DNA of 64,000 nt from Sutcliffiella horikoshii. GTDB lineage: Bacteria; Bacillota; Bacilli; Bacillales; Bacillaceae_I. Below the pieces are notes generated by a model. It was not told where the DNA came from, ran no database searches, and worked only from the letters and a program-made list of their open reading frames with translations. Of this stretch, positions 11,045 through 40,915 are shown piece by piece. The stretch covers positions 2,434,666-2,498,665 of the forward strand of contig KV440964.1 in the NCBI GenBank assembly GCA_001636495.1, read 5' to 3'. The number at the start of each line of letters is the position of its first letter. The stretch's first letter is position 1. Position numbers and translations under genes: made by a program.

Positions 11045-11072
11045 AACCCCCCTTGTGAATAGGGGGTTTTTC
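11045..11072 (+). terminator. Intrinsic terminator of panBCD
   Basis: AACCCCC and GGGGGTT form the stem, followed by a TTTTTC tract; it closes the pan operon before dinG. Confidence 0.85.
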
Positions 11073-11172
11073 TATTAGATCAATGGGAAAAATAAAAATA
11101 CGTATTTTTTTCATATGGTGTCTATGGTACCTTTTATATAGATTCTTTTCAGATGTAATGAGGTGTAGTTAA

Positions 11173-13746
11173 ATGAAACAGCGATTTGTGGTTCTCGACT
11201 TGGAAACGACAGGGAATTCCCCGAAGAAAAATGACAAAATAATACAAGTTGGCGCTGTTTTAATTGAAGATGGCGAAATAGTCGAGCGTTTTTCAAGCTT
11301 TGTAAATCCGGAATGTGCCATTCCTCCATTTATTGAGCAGTTAACGAATATTAAACAGGAAATGGTTGACCGTGCTCCAACCTTTCAGCAAATTGCACCG
11401 ATGTTGAATGAAATGCTGGCAGGGTCTTCTTTGGTGGCGCACAATGTCCCGTTTGACCTGTCATTTTTGCAACATGAATTGAGATCAAGTGGCTTTCCTG
11501 CCTTTTCTGGAAACACCTTTGATACAGTGGAACTAGCAAGAATTCTGCTACCGACTCAAAAAAGTTATAAATTAACAGATCTGTCCATCTATTATCAGCT
11601 TAATCATGATAATCCGCATAGAGCAGATAGTGATGCAGAAGCCACCGCAATTATCTTCCTAAAGCTATTGGAGAAGATTAACAAGCTTCCTCCCGTCACA
11701 GTAAATCAGTTACATACATTTTTACATACGATGAAAAGTGACATTTATCTATTGTTTCAAACAGAAGGCAGCATCATACCCGAAGATTATGTTTTATACG
11801 ACGATAAGCTTGTTGTTAAAAAGATCAGAGTATATAGTCTTAAGCAAAAAGACCAAAACAAAAAGAAGTTCCTAGATCAAGTTTTGACACTGCTGAAGCC
11901 GGTGGGGAAGGAAGTGAGTAATCTTCTTGAATCCCGTCAACATGGGCTGTTGGAATTACCTCCATCTGAAGCCAAAAAGATAAATCATGTATGGGGCGCA
12001 ATAGTGTTTGCTCTTCAACAAAACAAACAGGTTGCCATTTCTTCTGTCACATCGGATACAAAGCGGACCCTAGAAAAGCTGGTTCACAAAATCAATCGGG
12101 AATCCGTGTCCTTTCTTTCTGAAATCAAAGGGAAATTCTTTTATCTAAGTCTGTCTAGGTTCTCTGCAGCTCTAGAAGAGGAAGATGATAATTATGATGC
12201 AGTCCTGACTAAAGCACAGATTCTTGTATGGTTGACGGAGACAGATACAGGGGACATGGAGGAACTTTCCCTTTCATCTGGTGGAAGGTTGTTATGGGAT
12301 GCGATAAACTGCTCATACGGAAGAACGAAGAGACAGGAGAAAGAAGATTTATGTTTTTATCAAAATGCTGTAAGAAGAATGGATGGATCTTATGTAATTT
12401 TTACCAATCATCAATTTCTCGCAAAGGAAATTTGGAAGCAGGATATTTTTAAGGGATTGGATTATTTTCTAGTGGAGGATGCTAATTTTTTTCAGCACAA
12501 TGTGAGCAGATTCCTCGGTAAACAAATAAGCTACCTGGATATATATTTTGCTCTGACAAAACTAAAGGAAACGTCCATAGTTATGCAGGCAAAGGAAGAA
12601 CTGGATGAAGCATTTAGGATGATTAGAAGCTATTGCCTTTCAAGGACCAAGAAAAGCCATCAAAGATCCATTTATAGATATGACCTGTTGAAAGAGAGTT
12701 CCCCTGGCTGGTTTGCCGTCCTCGAAGCGGCACAGCGTCTTTGCATGAAGCTGACAGAAGTTCTCATTTCTTTGGAAAAGCGAGGTGTAGAAATGGGAAT
12801 CCATCATGAATCTGACCTCCTTCCATTAAAACAAATGAGGGACACATTCCATTCCCTCTTATTTGAGAAGAGGAACAATGCGCTTACTTGGTTTGATGTC
12901 TTGGCAAAGGGTGCTAAGAATTCCGTCACGATCTATGAGGAGCCCATCGACATTTCACAGAGCCTAGCAGAAAAGTTCTACCAGCAAAAAAGCAGCGTCC
13001 TTTTTATTTCACAGGCAATGAGTGTAGATAATCGATTCGATTATATGGTAGAAGAGCTTGGATTGACCGATTTTTATCCTAAAACGGTCACTTATGAAGC
13101 AAATGAAGGGTTTGGCTATCCTGGTGTGTTTATACCGACAGACATGCCGACCATTACAAGGGGGAAAAATGAAGCCTTTATCCAAATGGCAGCCATCCAA
13201 ATAAAAGAGATACTGGAAGAAAAGGGAGGGAGGATCCTTGTCACTTTTTCGTCGCTTGAAATGCTAGCTGCAGTCTACCAGGAAATCAAGTCCCTACCTA
13301 ATTCCGAGGAAACAGTGGTTGTAAGTCAAAGCAGCATGACAGGAGGAAAACAGAAGATTCTCAAGGCAGCCTCCAATTTTGAAAAATCCATTCTGCTAGT
13401 GTCGAACAGCTTTCTCGAAGAAGTATCCCTGACTGATGAAACTATAGACACATTGGTGGTAATCCGTTTGCCTTTCAAAGCGATGGACGAACCGCTGATG
13501 GCAGCTAGGATTGCTAATGTGGAAGGACAAGGGCGTAATTCATTTACAGATGTTTCCCTGCCAATTGCCGTTTTGAGATTTAAGAAAATGGTTGGCGTGT
13601 TCCTAGAAGAAGGCGGATCAAAAGATATATTTATTTTTGACAGGAGAGTGGTGGATAAACGTTACGGCCGTTCGTTTATAGACGCCATTCCAAATGCAAT
13701 CGTTAGAAAAGATTCATTTTTTTCCTTGTTGAATAGTATGAATTAG
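11173..13746 (+). CDS. dinG: DinG-family exonuclease with a degenerate helicase domain
   Basis: An 857-residue protein in the dinG position (after panD). The N-terminal DnaQ-type 3'-5' exonuclease (about 1-170) is intact: DLETTG at 8-13, HNVPFDLSFL, and HRADSDAEAT. The helicase half still aligns with DinG (for example DNYDAVLTKAQILVWLTET), but the ATPase motifs are gone. The stretch expected to hold the Walker A loop (about 257-300) contains no GxGKS/T, the DEAH box reads VEDAN at 434-438, and motif VI reads RFKKMVGVF from 802 instead of a QGxGRLIR form. The frame is uninterrupted, so this is not a fresh pseudogene. Inference: a nuclease-only or structural protein. Confidence 0.85.
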   Translation: MKQRFVVLDLETTGNSPKKNDKIIQVGAVLIEDGEIVERFSSFVNPECAIPPFIEQLTNIKQEMVDRAPTFQQIAPMLNEMLAGSSLVAHNVPFDLSFLQHELRSSGFPAFSGNTFDTVELARILLPTQKSYKLTDLSIYYQLNHDNPHRADSDAEATAIIFLKLLEKINKLPPVTVNQLHTFLHTMKSDIYLLFQTEGSIIPEDYVLYDDKLVVKKIRVYSLKQKDQNKKKFLDQVLTLLKPVGKEVSNLLESRQHGLLELPPSEAKKINHVWGAIVFALQQNKQVAISSVTSDTKRTLEKLVHKINRESVSFLSEIKGKFFYLSLSRFSAALEEEDDNYDAVLTKAQILVWLTETDTGDMEELSLSSGGRLLWDAINCSYGRTKRQEKEDLCFYQNAVRRMDGSYVIFTNHQFLAKEIWKQDIFKGLDYFLVEDANFFQHNVSRFLGKQISYLDIYFALTKLKETSIVMQAKEELDEAFRMIRSYCLSRTKKSHQRSIYRYDLLKESSPGWFAVLEAAQRLCMKLTEVLISLEKRGVEMGIHHESDLLPLKQMRDTFHSLLFEKRNNALTWFDVLAKGAKNSVTIYEEPIDISQSLAEKFYQQKSSVLFISQAMSVDNRFDYMVEELGLTDFYPKTVTYEANEGFGYPGVFIPTDMPTITRGKNEAFIQMAAIQIKEILEEKGGRILVTFSSLEMLAAVYQEIKSLPNSEETVVVSQSSMTGGKQKILKAASNFEKSILLVSNSFLEEVSLTDETIDTLVVIRLPFKAMDEPLMAARIANVEGQGRNSFTDVSLPIAVLRFKKMVGVFLEEGGSKDIFIFDRRVVDKRYGRSFIDAIPNAIVRKDSFFSLLNSMN

Positions 13747-13789: not shown

Positions 13790-14641
13790 GTGGAATGGAT
13801 GAACTTAATGTGGAATATGATGACCATTTGTTTAATGCTATTCAATTGGGGGATATTTCAGCCAGAACTCCCTCATGATGTGGAGCGAATTCATTTAAAT
13901 TTAACCAAAAATGAAATAGCCTTCACATTTTTTGATTTATCACAAGGTGAAAGTACATTGATACAATCAGGTACAGGGGACAATATTCTTCTTAATACCG
14001 GTGGGCCGGAAGCAGGGGAAGAGCTATTATATTATCTCGATATTTACGGCGTCGAAGAGCTGACTTCTGTTATTGTCACAAGTGAGGCAGATGAATATAT
14101 CGGCAATTTGCAAAGTTTGGTAAAGAATGTACAAGTTAATAATGTCGTATTACCTGATTCTTCCTTTGACCTTCCCATACAAATAAAGAATGTCACATGG
14201 AAAGTCGGGAAAATGGATGAACTATTACATGGCCTAACATGTGAAGTCCTGAGTAAAGGAAGCAAAGACGATCATTTTGCCATGGACTTATTATTGGAAT
14301 ACAAAGGCACATACATTCTTTACATGACCAGCGCAAAAGAAGAAGTAGAAGCCAACCTCATGAAAGATAAAGATTTAAGTGTAGTAAACATCCTGAAAGT
14401 GGGGGATTTCGGCAGTCCTTCCGGTACGACAGAAGCTTTTCTGAAGGAATGTGATCCCCAAGTTGCCATAGTATTCCATAAGAACCAACAAAAAGGAATA
14501 ACGGACGTATTGGAACGCCTCCATGAGACATGGATGGACATCTATCAGACCCGTCAGGTAGGAAATATTTCTGTGAAAGCAAAGGATCATGATTACCAGG
14601 TGTTTACGATTACACTGGATGCATATCGTTCCATATCCTAA
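13790..14641 (+). CDS. ComEC-like metallo-beta-lactamase-fold protein without metal ligands
   Basis: A 283-residue protein with a short hydrophobic N terminus (probable signal or anchor) and a domain resembling the C-terminal MBL domain of ComEC. FFDLSQGESTLIQ corresponds to the usual FLDVGQGDA segment, and ILLNTGG to ILIDTGG. The metal motif is lost: residues 97-106 read TSEADEYIGN where ComEC has SHPDADHIGG, so the His and Asp ligands are replaced. A hydrolytic role is therefore unlikely; it may bind a ligand or be structural. It lies 43 bp after dinG. GTG at 13790 is used, though ATG at 13799 or 13808 is possible. Confidence 0.65.
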   Translation: MEWMNLMWNMMTICLMLFNWGIFQPELPHDVERIHLNLTKNEIAFTFFDLSQGESTLIQSGTGDNILLNTGGPEAGEELLYYLDIYGVEELTSVIVTSEADEYIGNLQSLVKNVQVNNVVLPDSSFDLPIQIKNVTWKVGKMDELLHGLTCEVLSKGSKDDHFAMDLLLEYKGTYILYMTSAKEEVEANLMKDKDLSVVNILKVGDFGSPSGTTEAFLKECDPQVAIVFHKNQQKGITDVLERLHETWMDIYQTRQVGNISVKAKDHDYQVFTITLDAYRSIS

Positions 14642-30901: not shown

Positions 30902-33169
30902 ATGAAATGGAGAAAAACGATTTATGAAGTCATTGATTGGATGAAAAGGGAAGAGTCGATAGCTAAAAATATTGTTCATTGGGAAACGGTCCCGCCAAAA
31001 GAAGCGCAATCCGTTCCGTTCCCTGAAGAGATAGACCAGAGACTGTTACATTCATTGACCAACAGGGGGATTTCCTCTCTATATACACATCAGGCAGCTG
31101 CTTTTGACGCAGCCATCCATAAAAGGCACTTTGTAGCAGTCACTCCGACTGCATCTGGAAAAACGTTGTGCTACAATCTGCCTGTGCTTCAAAAGATTGT
31201 CCAGAACAATGATGCTCGTGCACTTTATCTATTTCCTACCAAAGCACTTGCACAAGATCAGAAAAGTGAATTGAACGAAATCATCACACAGATGGGTGTT
31301 CCAATCAACAGCTATACATATGACGGGGATACTGCGCCGACGATTAGACAAAAGGTAAGAAAAGCAGGGCATGTCGTTATTACAAATCCTGATATGTTAC
31401 ATTCCGCCATTTTGCCACATCACACCAAATGGGTTTCCCTCTTTGAAAACCTGGAATACATCGTGATAGATGAACTGCATACCTACAGGGGCGTTTTTGG
31501 CAGCCATGTAGCAAATGTAATCAGGAGACTGAAGCGGATCTGCAATTTTTATGGTAGCAATCCAACATTCATTTGTACCTCTGCCACAATAGCGAATCCA
31601 AAGGAATTGGCAGAAGAGCTAACTGGAGAAAACTTTGAACTGATTAACAATAATGGGGCACCATCGAGTAAGAAGCATATTGTTTTCTATAATCCGCCAA
31701 TCGTCAATAAGCCACTCAATATAAGAAGGAGTGCCACATTGGAAGTAAGAAAGCTAGCGGCTGAATTCCTACAGGAAAAAATTCAGACCATTGTGTTCGC
31801 CAAGAGCAGGGTCAGGGTAGAAATTCTATTGACCTATTTGAAAGAGCTTGTAAAGGATCAGCTTGGGGAAAAGTCCATTCAGGGATATCGTGGGGGCTAT
31901 TTACCCACACAACGTAGAGCGATTGAAAAGGGTTTGAGAAATGGAGAGATTTACGGTGTCATCAGCACAAATGCACTTGAGCTGGGTGTTGATATAGGGC
32001 AGCTGCAGGTATGTATCATGACAGGTTATCCAGGAACGATTGCAAGTGCATGGCAGCAGGCGGGACGTGCAGGAAGAAGACAGGGGGAGGCTGTCATTGT
32101 GATGGTTGCGAGTTCAAACCCTCTTGACCAGTATGTCATCCAGCATCCTGAATTTTTCCTGAAAAGCAATCCCGAATCAGCCAGAATCAATCCGAATAAT
32201 CTCATTATCCTTGTGGATCACATTAAATGTGCCGCCTATGAACTGCCATTTAAACAAGGTGATACATTTGATGGTGTGGAGCTGGAAGATATTCTTGACT
32301 ATTTGACGGAAGAGAGGGTCCTCCATGAAAACAACGGGAAGTGGCATTGGATGAATGATGCTTTTCCAGCACATAACATCAGTCTCCGATCAGCCTCTCA
32401 GGAAAATGTCATTATTGTCGATCAGAGCTCTGAACCGGCAAATAAAGTGATTGGAGAAATGGACCGTTTCAGCTCGATGACTCTGCTTCATGATGAGGCC
32501 ATCTATCTTCATCAAGGAGTACAATATCAAGTGGAGAAGCTGGATTGGGAAGAAAAGAAGGCGTTTGTAAGGGAAGTGAATGTCGACTACTTTACCGATG
32601 CAAATCTTGCGGTTTCCTTGGACGTTTTGGAAGTGGACAAGCAGATGGATTATACAGCCGGCACCATTTCTTACGGGGATGTTTCTGTCAGGGCGATGGC
32701 TACCATTTTCAAGAAAATTAAATTTGAAACGCATGAAAACATCGGTTCAGGGCCGATTTATCTGCCTGAAGAAGAGCTGCAGACCAGTGCAACATGGATA
32801 ACGTTGGAGGAGGAAATCACCCAAAGCCTAAAAGGCGATGATTTGGAAAAAAGTTTGCTAGGCATCGCTCATGCTTTGAAGCATGTTGCTCCTCTATTGT
32901 TGATGTGTGAGCCGATGGACGTGCAGGTAGTCCCACAAGTCAAGTCTACCCACGATGAAAAGCCAGTGGTATATTTTTATGACCGCTATCCAGGTGGGGT
33001 AGGTCTAAGCGAAAAAGCGTATTCTCATATAAATGAATTACTCAATAGAGCAAGCGAACTGATTGGAAGCTGTCCATGCCGCTCTGGATGTCCATCGTGT
33101 ATTGGTGCAGACTATCCGGATGAGGATTCCAAACAGTTGGCATTATCACTTCTTCAACAGCTTGTGTAA
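30902..33169 (+). CDS. mrfA: DEAD/DEAH-box DNA repair helicase MrfA (YprA)
   Basis: A 755-residue superfamily 2 helicase. It has Walker A in TPTASGKTLCYN (near residue 82), motif II VIDELHTYRG, motif III TSATIANP and motif VI QQAGRAGRRQGEA. A C-terminal MZB domain carries four Cys (CPCRSGCPSC), probably a zinc site. In B. subtilis MrfA works with MrfB in repair of mitomycin C lesions independently of UvrABC. The gene pair is preserved here (14 bp apart), and the LexA-type box upstream fits a damage-response role. The start codon follows GAGGTGAGCGT. Confidence 0.92.
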   Translation: MKWRKTIYEVIDWMKREESIAKNIVHWETVPPKEAQSVPFPEEIDQRLLHSLTNRGISSLYTHQAAAFDAAIHKRHFVAVTPTASGKTLCYNLPVLQKIVQNNDARALYLFPTKALAQDQKSELNEIITQMGVPINSYTYDGDTAPTIRQKVRKAGHVVITNPDMLHSAILPHHTKWVSLFENLEYIVIDELHTYRGVFGSHVANVIRRLKRICNFYGSNPTFICTSATIANPKELAEELTGENFELINNNGAPSSKKHIVFYNPPIVNKPLNIRRSATLEVRKLAAEFLQEKIQTIVFAKSRVRVEILLTYLKELVKDQLGEKSIQGYRGGYLPTQRRAIEKGLRNGEIYGVISTNALELGVDIGQLQVCIMTGYPGTIASAWQQAGRAGRRQGEAVIVMVASSNPLDQYVIQHPEFFLKSNPESARINPNNLIILVDHIKCAAYELPFKQGDTFDGVELEDILDYLTEERVLHENNGKWHWMNDAFPAHNISLRSASQENVIIVDQSSEPANKVIGEMDRFSSMTLLHDEAIYLHQGVQYQVEKLDWEEKKAFVREVNVDYFTDANLAVSLDVLEVDKQMDYTAGTISYGDVSVRAMATIFKKIKFETHENIGSGPIYLPEEELQTSATWITLEEEITQSLKGDDLEKSLLGIAHALKHVAPLLLMCEPMDVQVVPQVKSTHDEKPVVYFYDRYPGGVGLSEKAYSHINELLNRASELIGSCPCRSGCPSCIGADYPDEDSKQLALSLLQQLV

Positions 33170-33183
33170 AGTGGGGTGAAAAA

Positions 33184-34446
33184 ATGAGCATGAAGAATAA
33201 ATTGAAAAGGATGAAGAAACATCTACAATCTGATTCCTCCCAATCAACTGAGAGTGAAGTAGCACAACCAAATGAGGATTCTACGTCCAGTCAGATCGAA
33301 ATACCAAATCTGAAAGAGTGGGAATCTTTTGGAGCTAAGCCATACTATGCCAATGGGGAGTATTGTTTCATTCGTGAAGTGGCGTATGATCTGGACTTTC
33401 GGCATGGAAAGTATAGGCTCGGGGAACTTTTGCCGGTGATGGAAGAGTGGCAGGCATCGGGTGTGGAGCATCCTTTATCTGCAAAAGGCCATCATGCTTC
33501 AGACTTATTCTTTTTTGATACGGAAACTACCGGATTGAGTGGAGGAACGGGAACCACTATATTCCTTCTTGGATATGCCAGGGTATTAAAAGATAAAGTA
33601 ATCGTTAGGCAACACTTGCTTCCAGGCCCGGGTAACGAAGTCGCGCTTTATCAAAGTTTTCTAGAAGAAGTAGATTACACAACATTAGTCACTTATAATG
33701 GAAAGGCATTTGATTGGCCACAAGTTAGGACACGTCACACTCTAATAAGAGAGCATGTCCCGAAACTTCCTTCCTTCGGCCATTATGATCTTCTGCATGC
33801 TTCAAGAAGGCTTTGGAAAAGTAAAATGGAATCAGTTAGGCTTGCAAATGTAGAGAAGGAGATTTTGGGCATTCAACGTAAGGATGACGTACCTGGTTTT
33901 TTGGCCCCTATGATTTATTTTGATTTTGTAAAGACACATGAAATGCAGGGAATTAAAGGTGTGCTTAAACACAATGAATGGGATGTGCTCACCCTTATTA
34001 CCTTGTACGCCCATTTATCAAAGCTCCTTTTGGTGAGGAACAAGGAAAGAAACAAAGAGGAAGAGTATGAGGTAGGGCGCTGGTATGATGCATTGGGAGA
34101 AAAGGCAGCGGCAGCGACAATATATAAGAACATACTCGATTCTTCTTGGGAGGCAACCTTTAAATTGGGGATGATGAAGAAACAAGAGCAAAATTACGAA
34201 GAAGCAAAAAGGTTGTTCCTCCAATGCTATCAACATGATGATAATCTACAAAAGGAAGAAGCTGGGATTGAATTGGCGAAAATCCTCGAGCATAGGGACA
34301 AAGACTTATCGCTTGCTTTGTTTTATACGCAAAAGTCCATGGATTTCTACATGGAAAAGAATAAGGGTTTCTTGAAAAACAAGCCTTCCATTTTAGCTGA
34401 TTTTGAAAAGAGAATGAAACGATTGCAAAGAAAATTAAATAAATGA
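33184..34446 (+). CDS. mrfB: DNA repair exonuclease MrfB (YprB)
   Basis: A 420-residue protein. The DnaQ/RNase H-like exonuclease domain spans about 90-275, with FFDTETTGLSGG holding the first catalytic Asp and Glu, TYNGKAFDWPQ, and HNEWDVLTL with the terminal Asp. A helical TPR-like region (about 300-420; KLGMMKKQEQNYEEAKRLF) follows. It is the partner of MrfA in mitomycin C repair. It begins 14 bp after mrfA with GTGGGG as RBS; an N-terminal charged stretch of about 40 residues appears disordered. Confidence 0.9.
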   Translation: MSMKNKLKRMKKHLQSDSSQSTESEVAQPNEDSTSSQIEIPNLKEWESFGAKPYYANGEYCFIREVAYDLDFRHGKYRLGELLPVMEEWQASGVEHPLSAKGHHASDLFFFDTETTGLSGGTGTTIFLLGYARVLKDKVIVRQHLLPGPGNEVALYQSFLEEVDYTTLVTYNGKAFDWPQVRTRHTLIREHVPKLPSFGHYDLLHASRRLWKSKMESVRLANVEKEILGIQRKDDVPGFLAPMIYFDFVKTHEMQGIKGVLKHNEWDVLTLITLYAHLSKLLLVRNKERNKEEEYEVGRWYDALGEKAAAATIYKNILDSSWEATFKLGMMKKQEQNYEEAKRLFLQCYQHDDNLQKEEAGIELAKILEHRDKDLSLALFYTQKSMDFYMEKNKGFLKNKPSILADFEKRMKRLQRKLNK

Positions 34447-38995: not shown

Positions 38996-40915
38996 ATGAA
39001 CAATCGTCTGCCATTTACAATGAACAAAGGGGATGCCTTTTTTGATCGCCTGAACGAATGGATCGGGGATGTATTTTACGACATCCTACCTGAAGCTGGA
39101 TTCGAATTGCGTGATGAACAGATCTTTATGGCTTTCCAACTGGAAAGAGCGTTTAAAGAGAAAAAGGTAATATTCTCAGAAGCCGGTGTAGGAACAGGCA
39201 AGACAATGGTGTACCTTTTGTATGCAATCTGTTATGCGAGATATATGGGGAAACCAGCTATCATAACCTGTGCCGATGAATCTTTGATTGAGCAGCTTGT
39301 GAAAAAAGAAGGAGACATTGCAAAGCTCTCCAAAGTTCTAGACATTACAATGGATGTACGTCTAGCAAAATCTCCGGAACAATACCTGTGTTTAAACAAA
39401 TTAGATATTGCCGTAAATAAGTATGATAATGACAACATAGATGAAGTGTATGATGCACTTCCAAGCTTTGTGACAAAGCCAGCTGCGATGCAATCTTTCC
39501 ATCCTTATGGAGACCGCAAAGATTACGCAAAACTGAATGACGAGGAATGGGACATGGTCGGATGGGATACGTTCCAAGACTGTTTCAGCTGTGAAAAACG
39601 ACATCGTTGTGGACAAACTCTATCCCGTGATCATTACAGAAAATCTACAGATCTTATTATCTGTTCTCATGATTTTTACATGGAACATGTTTGGACGTTT
39701 GACAAAAGAAAGCGCGAAGGACAGCTTCCTTTATTGCCAGAAGCATCAAGTGTCGTTTTTGATGAAGGGCATTTATTGGAGTTTGCTGCGCAAAAAGCAC
39801 TAACGTACAAAATTAAAAATCAGCAAGTAGAAGAAATTCTAACCCGCTTATTAGGAAATGACTTAAGGGAAGAATTTGCGTATCTAGTAGAGGATTCTTT
39901 ACAGGCAAACGATTTGTTTTTTGAAATGCTGGAAGAAAATCTGACAAGTATTGAGGGCTCAGAACGTAAAGACATTGCCATGGATACACGACTTGTAAAA
40001 AGTGCCAAAGACCTTTTAGAAAAAATAGAAGAGATAGGAAATCAACTTGTTTTCGAAGGGGAACTCCATACGGTAGATCATTATCAGCTGCATATAGTGG
40101 AGGAATACTTAGATTCTATTGAATTCCTACTAAAGCTACTTTTGTCAAAAGAAGATGTGATAGCTTGGGCAGAACATGCAAATAAGGATCTGACCCTTGT
40201 TGTGATGCCAAAAACTGTGGAAGAGGTCTTAAAGGAGAATGTCTTTTCTAAACAGATTCCGTTTATCTTTTCTTCTGCAACCTTATCTGACAATGAAAAC
40301 TTTAGTTATCTTGCATCTTCATTAGGAATAGGAGACTATTTATCCTTTTCCATTAATTCTCCATTTGATTACGAAGAGAATATGAAACTTTCTTTGGAGG
40401 TTGAAGAGGATTTCCATGTGAAATTCAACAAAACATTGGAATCCATCGAACGAAATGGTGGAAGAACGCTTGTGCTCTTCTCCACTAAAGAAGAATTACT
40501 AAAGTTTAAGTCTGAAAATGCCAATAACATGGACTATCCATTCCTATATGAAGGGGAAAAGGAAATAAGTGTGTTAGTTTCTGAATTCCAAAATGAAGAA
40601 CGGGCTGTTCTTTGTGCTTATCATTTATGGGAAGGCTTGGATATACCAGGACCTTCATTGTCCAACGTTGTGATTTGGTCCTTGCCATTTCCTCCGAATG
40701 ATCCAGTATTTGCTGCTAAACGTAAAGGGTTGGATGACCCGTATATGCAATTGGATGTTCCGTACATGCTGTTGCGTCTTCGCCAAGGGATGGGACGACT
40801 CATTCGTACCACCGAAGATAAAGGGGAGGTTACCTTATATCTTCCTTCAGGATTACAGGCAGATGTTCGTGAAAAACTAGAAGGGGTACTCCCTACCAGC
40901 CCAGTGACATTATAA
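38996..40915 (+). CDS. ypvA: ATP-dependent DNA helicase YpvA (XPD/DinG-like, Fe-S)
   Basis: A 639-residue superfamily 2 helicase with intact motifs: Walker A SEAGVGTGKTMVY, DEGH in VVFDEGHLLEF, SATLSD, and motif VI RLRQGMGRLIRT. Four Cys (132, 196, 199, 205) sit between motifs Ia and II in the arrangement of the XPD/DinG [4Fe-4S] domain, suggesting 5'-3' unwinding. It lacks the exonuclease domain seen in the dinG homologue of this window, whose ATPase is lost, so the two may be functionally complementary. RBS is CGGAGGT. Confidence 0.92.
   Translation: MNNRLPFTMNKGDAFFDRLNEWIGDVFYDILPEAGFELRDEQIFMAFQLERAFKEKKVIFSEAGVGTGKTMVYLLYAICYARYMGKPAIITCADESLIEQLVKKEGDIAKLSKVLDITMDVRLAKSPEQYLCLNKLDIAVNKYDNDNIDEVYDALPSFVTKPAAMQSFHPYGDRKDYAKLNDEEWDMVGWDTFQDCFSCEKRHRCGQTLSRDHYRKSTDLIICSHDFYMEHVWTFDKRKREGQLPLLPEASSVVFDEGHLLEFAAQKALTYKIKNQQVEEILTRLLGNDLREEFAYLVEDSLQANDLFFEMLEENLTSIEGSERKDIAMDTRLVKSAKDLLEKIEEIGNQLVFEGELHTVDHYQLHIVEEYLDSIEFLLKLLLSKEDVIAWAEHANKDLTLVVMPKTVEEVLKENVFSKQIPFIFSSATLSDNENFSYLASSLGIGDYLSFSINSPFDYEENMKLSLEVEEDFHVKFNKTLESIERNGGRTLVLFSTKEELLKFKSENANNMDYPFLYEGEKEISVLVSEFQNEERAVLCAYHLWEGLDIPGPSLSNVVIWSLPFPPNDPVFAAKRKGLDDPYMQLDVPYMLLRLRQGMGRLIRTTEDKGEVTLYLPSGLQADVREKLEGVLPTSPVTL

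Follow-up and report, generated by a model that had tools for sequence, protein, structure and literature searches.

In the 64,000-nucleotide stretch of the Sutcliffiella horikoshii genome analysed here (assembly GCA_001636495.1, contig KV440964.1, positions 2,434,666 to 2,498,665; hereafter the window), the dinG gene (11173..13746, + strand, like all features placed below by window coordinates) encodes an 857-aa DinG of the exonuclease-fused kind (ExoDinG) with intact exonuclease residues and lost ATPase motifs. With a probability of about 0.75, the sequence points to an ExoDinG that works as an ATP-independent 3'-5' exo(ribo)nuclease and carries a clamp derived from a dead helicase. The DEDDh domain would do the cutting, and the former helicase would neither bind nor hydrolyse ATP but serve as a fixed clamp, gripping single-stranded nucleic acid in the groove of motor domain 2 (MD2) and passing its 3' end on to the nuclease domain. 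The enzyme activity, this mechanism and the cellular substrate are what we infer, with 3' ends at stalled forks, R-loop RNA and unprocessed rRNA as candidate substrates. As judged from sequence comparisons, the dead DinG is a genuine form of ExoDinG that extends throughout its clade and has arisen repeatedly in nature.

The reading frame of 857 codons is uninterrupted, as the first-pass annotation of the stretch had stated, and both halves of the fusion were recognised in its product. The DEDDh 3'-5' exonuclease domain takes up residues 1-195 (11173..11757), with a Pfam RNase_T match at residues 6-162 (E 2.2e-35). The five DEDDh catalytic residues of an ExoDinG N-terminus are all present: D9 and E11 (11197..11205) in DLETTG (residues 9-14), D95 in HNVPFD (residues 90-95, 11440..11457), and H149 and D154 in HRADSD (11617..11634), a part of HRADSDAEAT (residues 149-158). 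Each of them was found in 100% of 103 motor-intact relatives and in the dead proteins alike, and the three motifs, reported earlier as intact, indeed were. The helicase half, made of motor domain 1 (MD1), the pseudo-FeS (pFeS)/Arch region and MD2, spans residues 250-857 (11920..13743) and matched Pfam Helicase_C_2 at residues 677-841. The XPD/DinG helicase fold of ExoDinG, with MD1, Arch and MD2, was seen in the predicted AlphaFold2 model (predicted local distance difference test score, pLDDT, 90.1; predicted template modelling score, pTM, 0.86). The best match of this model in the PDB was the S. aureus DinG complex with single-stranded DNA (ssDNA), 8zef (template modelling (TM) score 0.75, root mean square deviation 6.9), and E. 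coli DinG (6fwr) reached a TM score of 0.54. The gene also lies at the genomic position of dinG in Bacillales. Among NCBIfam profiles, that of the DnaQ/DinG fusion family (TIGR01407) was passed barely (551.7 bits versus a cut-off of 547.7), and the helicase equivalog PRK08074 was not reached (749.2 bits versus 789).

None of the motifs expected of a functional DinG helicase (I, II and VI, and also Q, III and V) was found in working form. In the alignment, the place of Walker A is taken by E261 followed by LPPSEAKK (residues 262-269, 11956..11979), that of DEAH by EDAN (residues 435-438, 12475..12486; VEDAN at 434-438) and that of motif VI by KMVGVFLE (residues 805-812, 13585..13608), with RFKKMVGVF at residues 802-810. 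These substitutions in the DEAH and motif VI positions agree with the first-pass reading, which had not listed the degraded motifs III (ISQA instead of TSAT, residues 612-615, 13006..13017) and V (residues 743-752, 13399..13428), nor the motif Q columns degraded alongside them. In a pattern search, [GA]xxxxGK[ST] was absent past residue 190, bearing out the claimed loss of Walker A, and DE[AGS]H and QxxGRxxR were absent from the entire protein, the same search having found all three motifs in 103/103 motor-intact relatives. Because the patterns are missing beyond the expected places as well, the motifs are truly lost and not merely shifted. Displaced or alternative ATP motifs were also sought in relatives with the same kind of protein, with a negative outcome: among 32 dead proteins ("dead" meaning that neither Walker A nor motif VI is present), only G039 (residue 758) and G089 (residue 734) matched GK[ST] past residue 190, both far from the place of Walker A.

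The former pFeS region of the window protein (12310-12354) contains a cysteine pair, C380 and C394, in the arrangement INC ... C[FY]Y. At most one cysteine characterises the pseudo-FeS domain of Bacillales ExoDinG; the stretch here has two, the domain border not being fixed. The pair was present in 16/16 same-genus genomes and in G017, and G016 has the first cysteine only. The same-genus proteins come from records of S. horikoshii, S. halmapala, S. deserti, S. rhizosphaerae and Bacillus tianshenii. In one assembly (S. horikoshii DSM 8719) two dinG copies, L226 and L227, which score alike against the window protein and are equally identical to it, sit on separate contigs of 9.4 kb and 55 kb, perhaps as an assembly duplicate.

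The distribution of the dead motor was surveyed in a sample of 150 genomes of the order, in which missing and divergent cases were followed up. It contained 19 genomes with a dead DinG, one with a part-degraded protein (G049), 119 with an intact motor and 11 without a DinG match, in which only PolC-like exonuclease matches were found. The intact set comprises 118 proteins read directly and the frame-broken G119, whose Walker A and DEAH are encoded in a different frame and whose motif VI falls beyond the available piece, and which was omitted from later alignments. The dead genomes were spread over five families, with six in f1 (the GTDB family of the window genome, Sutcliffiella and kin), four in f9 and three each in f21, f23 and f31. 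When family searches were included, 152 DinG proteins were read, of which 119 (103 + 16) were intact and 32 dead, with G049 as the remaining one. Among the best 80 of at least 560 relatives, 79 loci could be read (L305 was unread), and 11 of these were dead (ten from f1, one from f31) and 68 intact.

In f1, represented by 18 genomes of three genera, Walker A and motif VI were lost in 18/18 genomes and DE[AGS]H was also absent in 17/18, the exception being G016 with DESH. The dead state was found in 4/4 genomes of f9, 3/3 of f23 and 3/4 of f31, the fourth f31 genome having no DinG match. The most telling family is f21, as its eight genomes are a mixture of four dead (G037, G113, G080 and G164), one intact (G165) and three without a DinG match, one of the latter (G162) being only 80% complete. 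In G049 (family f33, locus L322), the sixth case, GKR replaces GK[ST], motif VI is lost, DEAH is kept and the frame is broken in MD2; this protein is a candidate early step of such a loss. Since a DEAH-like box persists in several dead or part-degraded proteins (DESH in G016; DEAH in G037, G089, G147 and G049), motif II seems to be the last to go. This retention in the dead relatives, together with the RecA-like folds still predicted, is what could be said for continued use of ATP through altered, non-canonical motifs, an explanation that is scarcely credible: the window protein has changes in every one of motifs Q, I, II, III, V and VI, and the seven f1 proteins of 844 aa have in the alignment a P-loop three residues shorter than that of the window DinG.

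The helicase half as a whole was never deleted in the 32 dead proteins, 31 of which are single frames of 803-922 aa, the 32nd (G164) being split over two contigs. The ratio of nonsynonymous to synonymous substitution rates (dN/dS; Nei-Gojobori method, pairs with dS<1, which are not independent of each other) was calculated separately for the parts of the protein. For 22 f1 pairs (21 of them among seven species), it was 0.053-0.148 for residues 250-590 and 0.054-0.118 for residues 591-857, with 0.031-0.150 for the exonuclease in the same pairs; 15 same-genus pairs with an intact motor gave 0.023-0.111 for the first of these helicase parts and 0.016-0.115 for the second. By these values purifying selection acts on the dead half, with a constraint somewhat weaker than in intact relatives. 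The low dN/dS and the dead state in 18/18 f1 genomes ruled out a pseudogene or a sequencing error as the origin of the window dinG. The earlier proposal that selection had kept a nuclease together with the dead helicase scaffold to which it is fused thus found support, dN/dS of the dead half being far below 1 and this half not having been deleted.

The retained residues are not spread evenly. Among columns conserved in at least 90% of the 103 intact proteins, f1 keeps 48/49 in the exonuclease, 55/80 in the rest of the helicase half and 3/26 in the ATP motifs. The DNA-contact columns, defined as the S. aureus DinG DNA-path residues whose mutation abolished unwinding (PMC12345164) and mapped by eye, are kept in 6/6 cases in f1, 5/6 in f9 and 6/6 in both f21 and f31. 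The S. aureus K338 column was dropped, its residue being common to only 63% of intact proteins, and residues with partial effects (K385/K389, H428/H431 and Y539) were left unscored. In the window protein these columns correspond to K319 (12127..12129; S. aureus K336 in the DNA channel, kept in 0.94 of f1), R765 and F768 of RLPF (13465..13476; the ssDNA residues K801 and F804), F791 (13543..13545; F823) and R825 and Y831 (13645..13665; R858 and Y864). Motifs Q, III and V had no part in the dead call; of their 11 columns, 2-3 were kept per lineage, with S613 and mostly E749 staying.

Several points weigh against an ATP-independent nuclease with a clamp. MD1 of the dead half evolves faster than the exonuclease (identity 0.81 versus 0.95 between G000 and G014), and dN/dS of residues 250-590 tends to be higher in f1 than in the 15 intact pairs; it is for these two reasons that the constraint is regarded as somewhat relaxed. 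The DNA-contact columns were lost too in f23 (1/6 kept), so the clamp reading leaves this family out. The contrast seen for ATP-motif columns is partly there by construction, motifs I and VI having defined "dead"; the motif columns were picked from general definitions of superfamily 2 (SF2) motifs, and the input alignment of the structure model consisted mostly of motor-intact relatives. Finally, a helicase-dead S. aureus variant failed to restore crosslink resistance (PMC12345164), so at least one relative has a use for its motor.

Some of these observations would also fit a slow decay, in which the helicase half became functionless once the ATPase was useless and is drifting towards deletion. 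The faster change of MD1, the loss of DNA-contact columns in f23, the state of G049 with its GKR, lost motif VI and frame break in MD2, and the lack of a DinG match in 11/150 genomes could all be understood as steps on this path. However, dN/dS of 0.05-0.15 in f1, where the dead DinG is family-wide, the undeleted helicase half in 32 dead proteins and the ssDNA residues kept in four lineages make such a decay improbable.

The number of independent losses was evaluated for the five dead families with species trees based on rpoB (60 genomes) and on rpoB+rpoC (2379 columns). Intact families separate all five dead families in both trees. In the rpoB+rpoC tree, f31 stands beside the intact f43 (support 100), the dead f21 genomes beside the intact G165 (100) and f23 beside the intact f29 (90), with f9 and f1 standing apart. 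A single common loss was rejected, as the approximately unbiased (AU) test on rpoB excluded monophyly of all dead genomes (p 6e-69). On rpoB+rpoC, the AU test rejected f1+f31 (3e-61), f1+f9 (0.004), f1+f23 (0.017) and f1+f9+f23 (0.0006) and did not reject f9+f23 (0.085); by the Shimodaira-Hasegawa (SH) test, f1+f9 and f1+f23 were not rejected either. On rpoB alone, with constrained searches that stopped early, the groupings f1+f31, f9+f23, f1+f9 and f1+f23 all escaped rejection (AU p 0.06-0.13). The f21 pairs, f9+f31 and f23+f31 were tested on rpoB only, with fast constrained searches, in which the unconstrained tree fell 46 log units under the best tree and these groupings at least 123 under it. 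The tests support at least four losses of the motor, and the best tree shows five; the claim is limited to at least four because f9+f23 was unrejected and the SH test spared f1+f9 and f1+f23.

The full-length DinG tree gave a different picture, with f9, f21 and f23 grouped together (support 0.948) and f1 placed with f31 (support 0). This grouping is read as probable long-branch attraction, since the exonuclease-only, rpoB and rpoB+rpoC trees split the groups and the intact G165 adjoins the dead f21. The 16 dead loci checked for synteny had panC/panD upstream and/or ypmB/aspB downstream, within the reach of each locus, and this shared neighbourhood makes it unlikely that a dead gene passed from one family to another. 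The dead state having been reached at least four times, the ATPase is suggested to be the dispensable part of ExoDinG in the order, and the nuclease with its scaffold the selected part.

A motor could become unneeded if another helicase supplied its activity. The first-pass annotation had proposed for this role YpvA, an XPD/DinG paralogue with intact ATPase motifs (38996..40915), whose assumed unwinding would have permitted the loss. The window encodes an intact YpvA, and the sampled dead genomes of f1 (6/6) and f31 (3/3) have one too, but it had no match at E<=1e-60 in the dead f9 (0/4), f21 (0/3) and f23 (0/3) genomes and was found in 79/119 genomes with an intact motor. The cut-off was not a close one, as every reported match was 1e-217 or better. 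With YpvA matchless in three of five dead lineages, the idea did not hold as a general cause, and YpvA replacement is very improbable as the explanation. Elsewhere in the same genome lies the gene of a third XPD/DinG-like helicase (L001, C1:3393906-3397418), whose ATPase motifs are intact and which bears a Cys-rich insert.

The window also contains, at 30902-34446, a two-gene pair of an MrfA-like helicase followed by an MrfB-like exonuclease; it shares the window with the dead fusion. The first gene (30902..33169) encodes a MrfA/YprA-like SF2 helicase with intact ATPase motifs. If the MrfA helicase and the MrfB exonuclease covered crosslink repair, the DinG motor would be unneeded, and S. aureus DinG has been likened to a fused MrfA-MrfB (PMC12345164). 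MrfA was found in 19/19 dead and 10/11 DinG-less genomes versus 91/119 intact-motor genomes (Fisher p=0.013, dead versus intact), a p value too small because the genomes are related; MrfA in 5/5 lineages would occur by chance at about 0.26. Moreover, the part-degraded G049 had no MrfA match, and the association comes from a survey of MrfA alone. Replacement by MrfAB is therefore considered unlikely, although it is the better of the two helper proposals.

The ATP-independent nuclease is consistent with the behaviour of characterised relatives. The S. aureus ExoDinG (PDB 8zef, 9ii8) shares with the window protein the domain order, the DEDDh site and the MD2 ssDNA residue columns (K801 being R in the window DinG), and differs in having ATPase motifs and unwinding in the 5'-3' direction (PMC12345164). 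MD2 of this protein holds seven bases and its exonuclease domain four; DNA affinity is reduced by ATP and both activities are inhibited at high ATP (PMC12345164). B. subtilis DinG has the same architecture and gene order (the latter via B. spizizenii) and is a 3'-5' exo(ribo)nuclease, as predicted for the window DinG, but it has its own ssDNA-stimulated ATPase, which its exonuclease does not need (PMC12525004). Its Walker mutant K290A lost DNA-stimulated ATPase activity and degraded ssDNA like the ATP-free enzyme, even in 2.5 mM ATP, and the toxicity of overexpressed DinG required the exonuclease and not ATP hydrolysis (PMC12525004). The dead lineages could be seen as the natural counterpart of this mutant. 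The Listeria E465A DinG also retained exonuclease activity (PMC12774634). By analogy with K290A and E465A, natural loss of the ATPase should leave an ATP-independent exonuclease. L. monocytogenes DinG, likewise an ExoDinG, takes part in rRNA quality control as a nuclease acting on unprocessed rRNA, and repression by ATP was not seen (PMC12774634); unlike the window protein, its wild type has DEAH and a P-loop.

Other systems show similar combinations of active and inactive parts. In the pExoDinG of the Caulobacter vibrioides type, too, one enzyme of the fusion is predicted to be inactive; it is the mirror case, with the nuclease as the dead part and the helicase kept (PMC11981726). An inactive helicase fold is retained beside a nuclease in AddB (PMC5443536), whose complex, unlike the window DinG, also includes an active motor subunit. 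RecC is likewise an inactive helicase fold beside a nuclease, and AddB falls in the superfamily 1 (SF1) family.

It is possible, and put forward tentatively, that the motor loss was adaptive and recurrent, in that lineages relying on DinG chiefly for its nuclease, for example on unprocessed rRNA or R-loop RNA, gained by shedding ATP control and turned the helicase fold into a substrate-selecting clamp. Such a gain would follow from the weakening of the ExoDinG substrate grip by ATP binding, as seen in S. aureus. It is opposed by the slight ATP inhibition in B. subtilis (PMC12525004) and by its absence in Listeria, where none was seen (PMC12774634). If true, ExoDinG would be a nuclease family with the helicase as an optional regulator.

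The surroundings of the gene are conserved. The neighbours of dinG are panB-panC-panD upstream and ypmB-aspB-asnS downstream, and the order panC-panD-dinG-ypmB-aspB-asnS was also found in B. spizizenii. Between panD and dinG, an inverted repeat followed by a T run was noticed by eye at 11045-11075, so dinG probably has its own promoter. Directly 3' of dinG lies an open reading frame (ORF) of 283 aa (13790-14641), for which no Pfam match was obtained. By eye, it resembles a ComEC-type metallo-beta-lactamase fold without the metal-ligand motif. In tblastn searches it was found at the same place in several f1, f9, f31 and f33 loci and at some motor-intact loci (Anoxybacillus, Rossellomorea and Cytobacillus), and not in S. 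rhizosphaerae, S. halmapala, G134 of f9 or the f21 and f23 loci checked.

No report of an ATPase-dead ExoDinG was found in the open-access literature searched, as far as its available parts go, and the accessible portion of a review of DinG-like proteins gives ExoDinG a helicase groove and does not list ATPase-dead members (PMC11981726). Published work disagrees on whether ExoDinG of Gram-positive bacteria should be regarded as a helicase or as a nuclease: for S. aureus DinG the first report gave no helicase activity and a later one did, and B. subtilis DinG is described as lacking robust helicase activity. The "helicase" label can be wrong for such proteins. The dead proteins are ready test material for separating nuclease from helicase roles without engineered mutants. 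Because the ATPase has been lost repeatedly and the exonuclease residues have stayed each time, this recurrent natural loss is independent evidence for the nuclease as the core function of DinG in the order.

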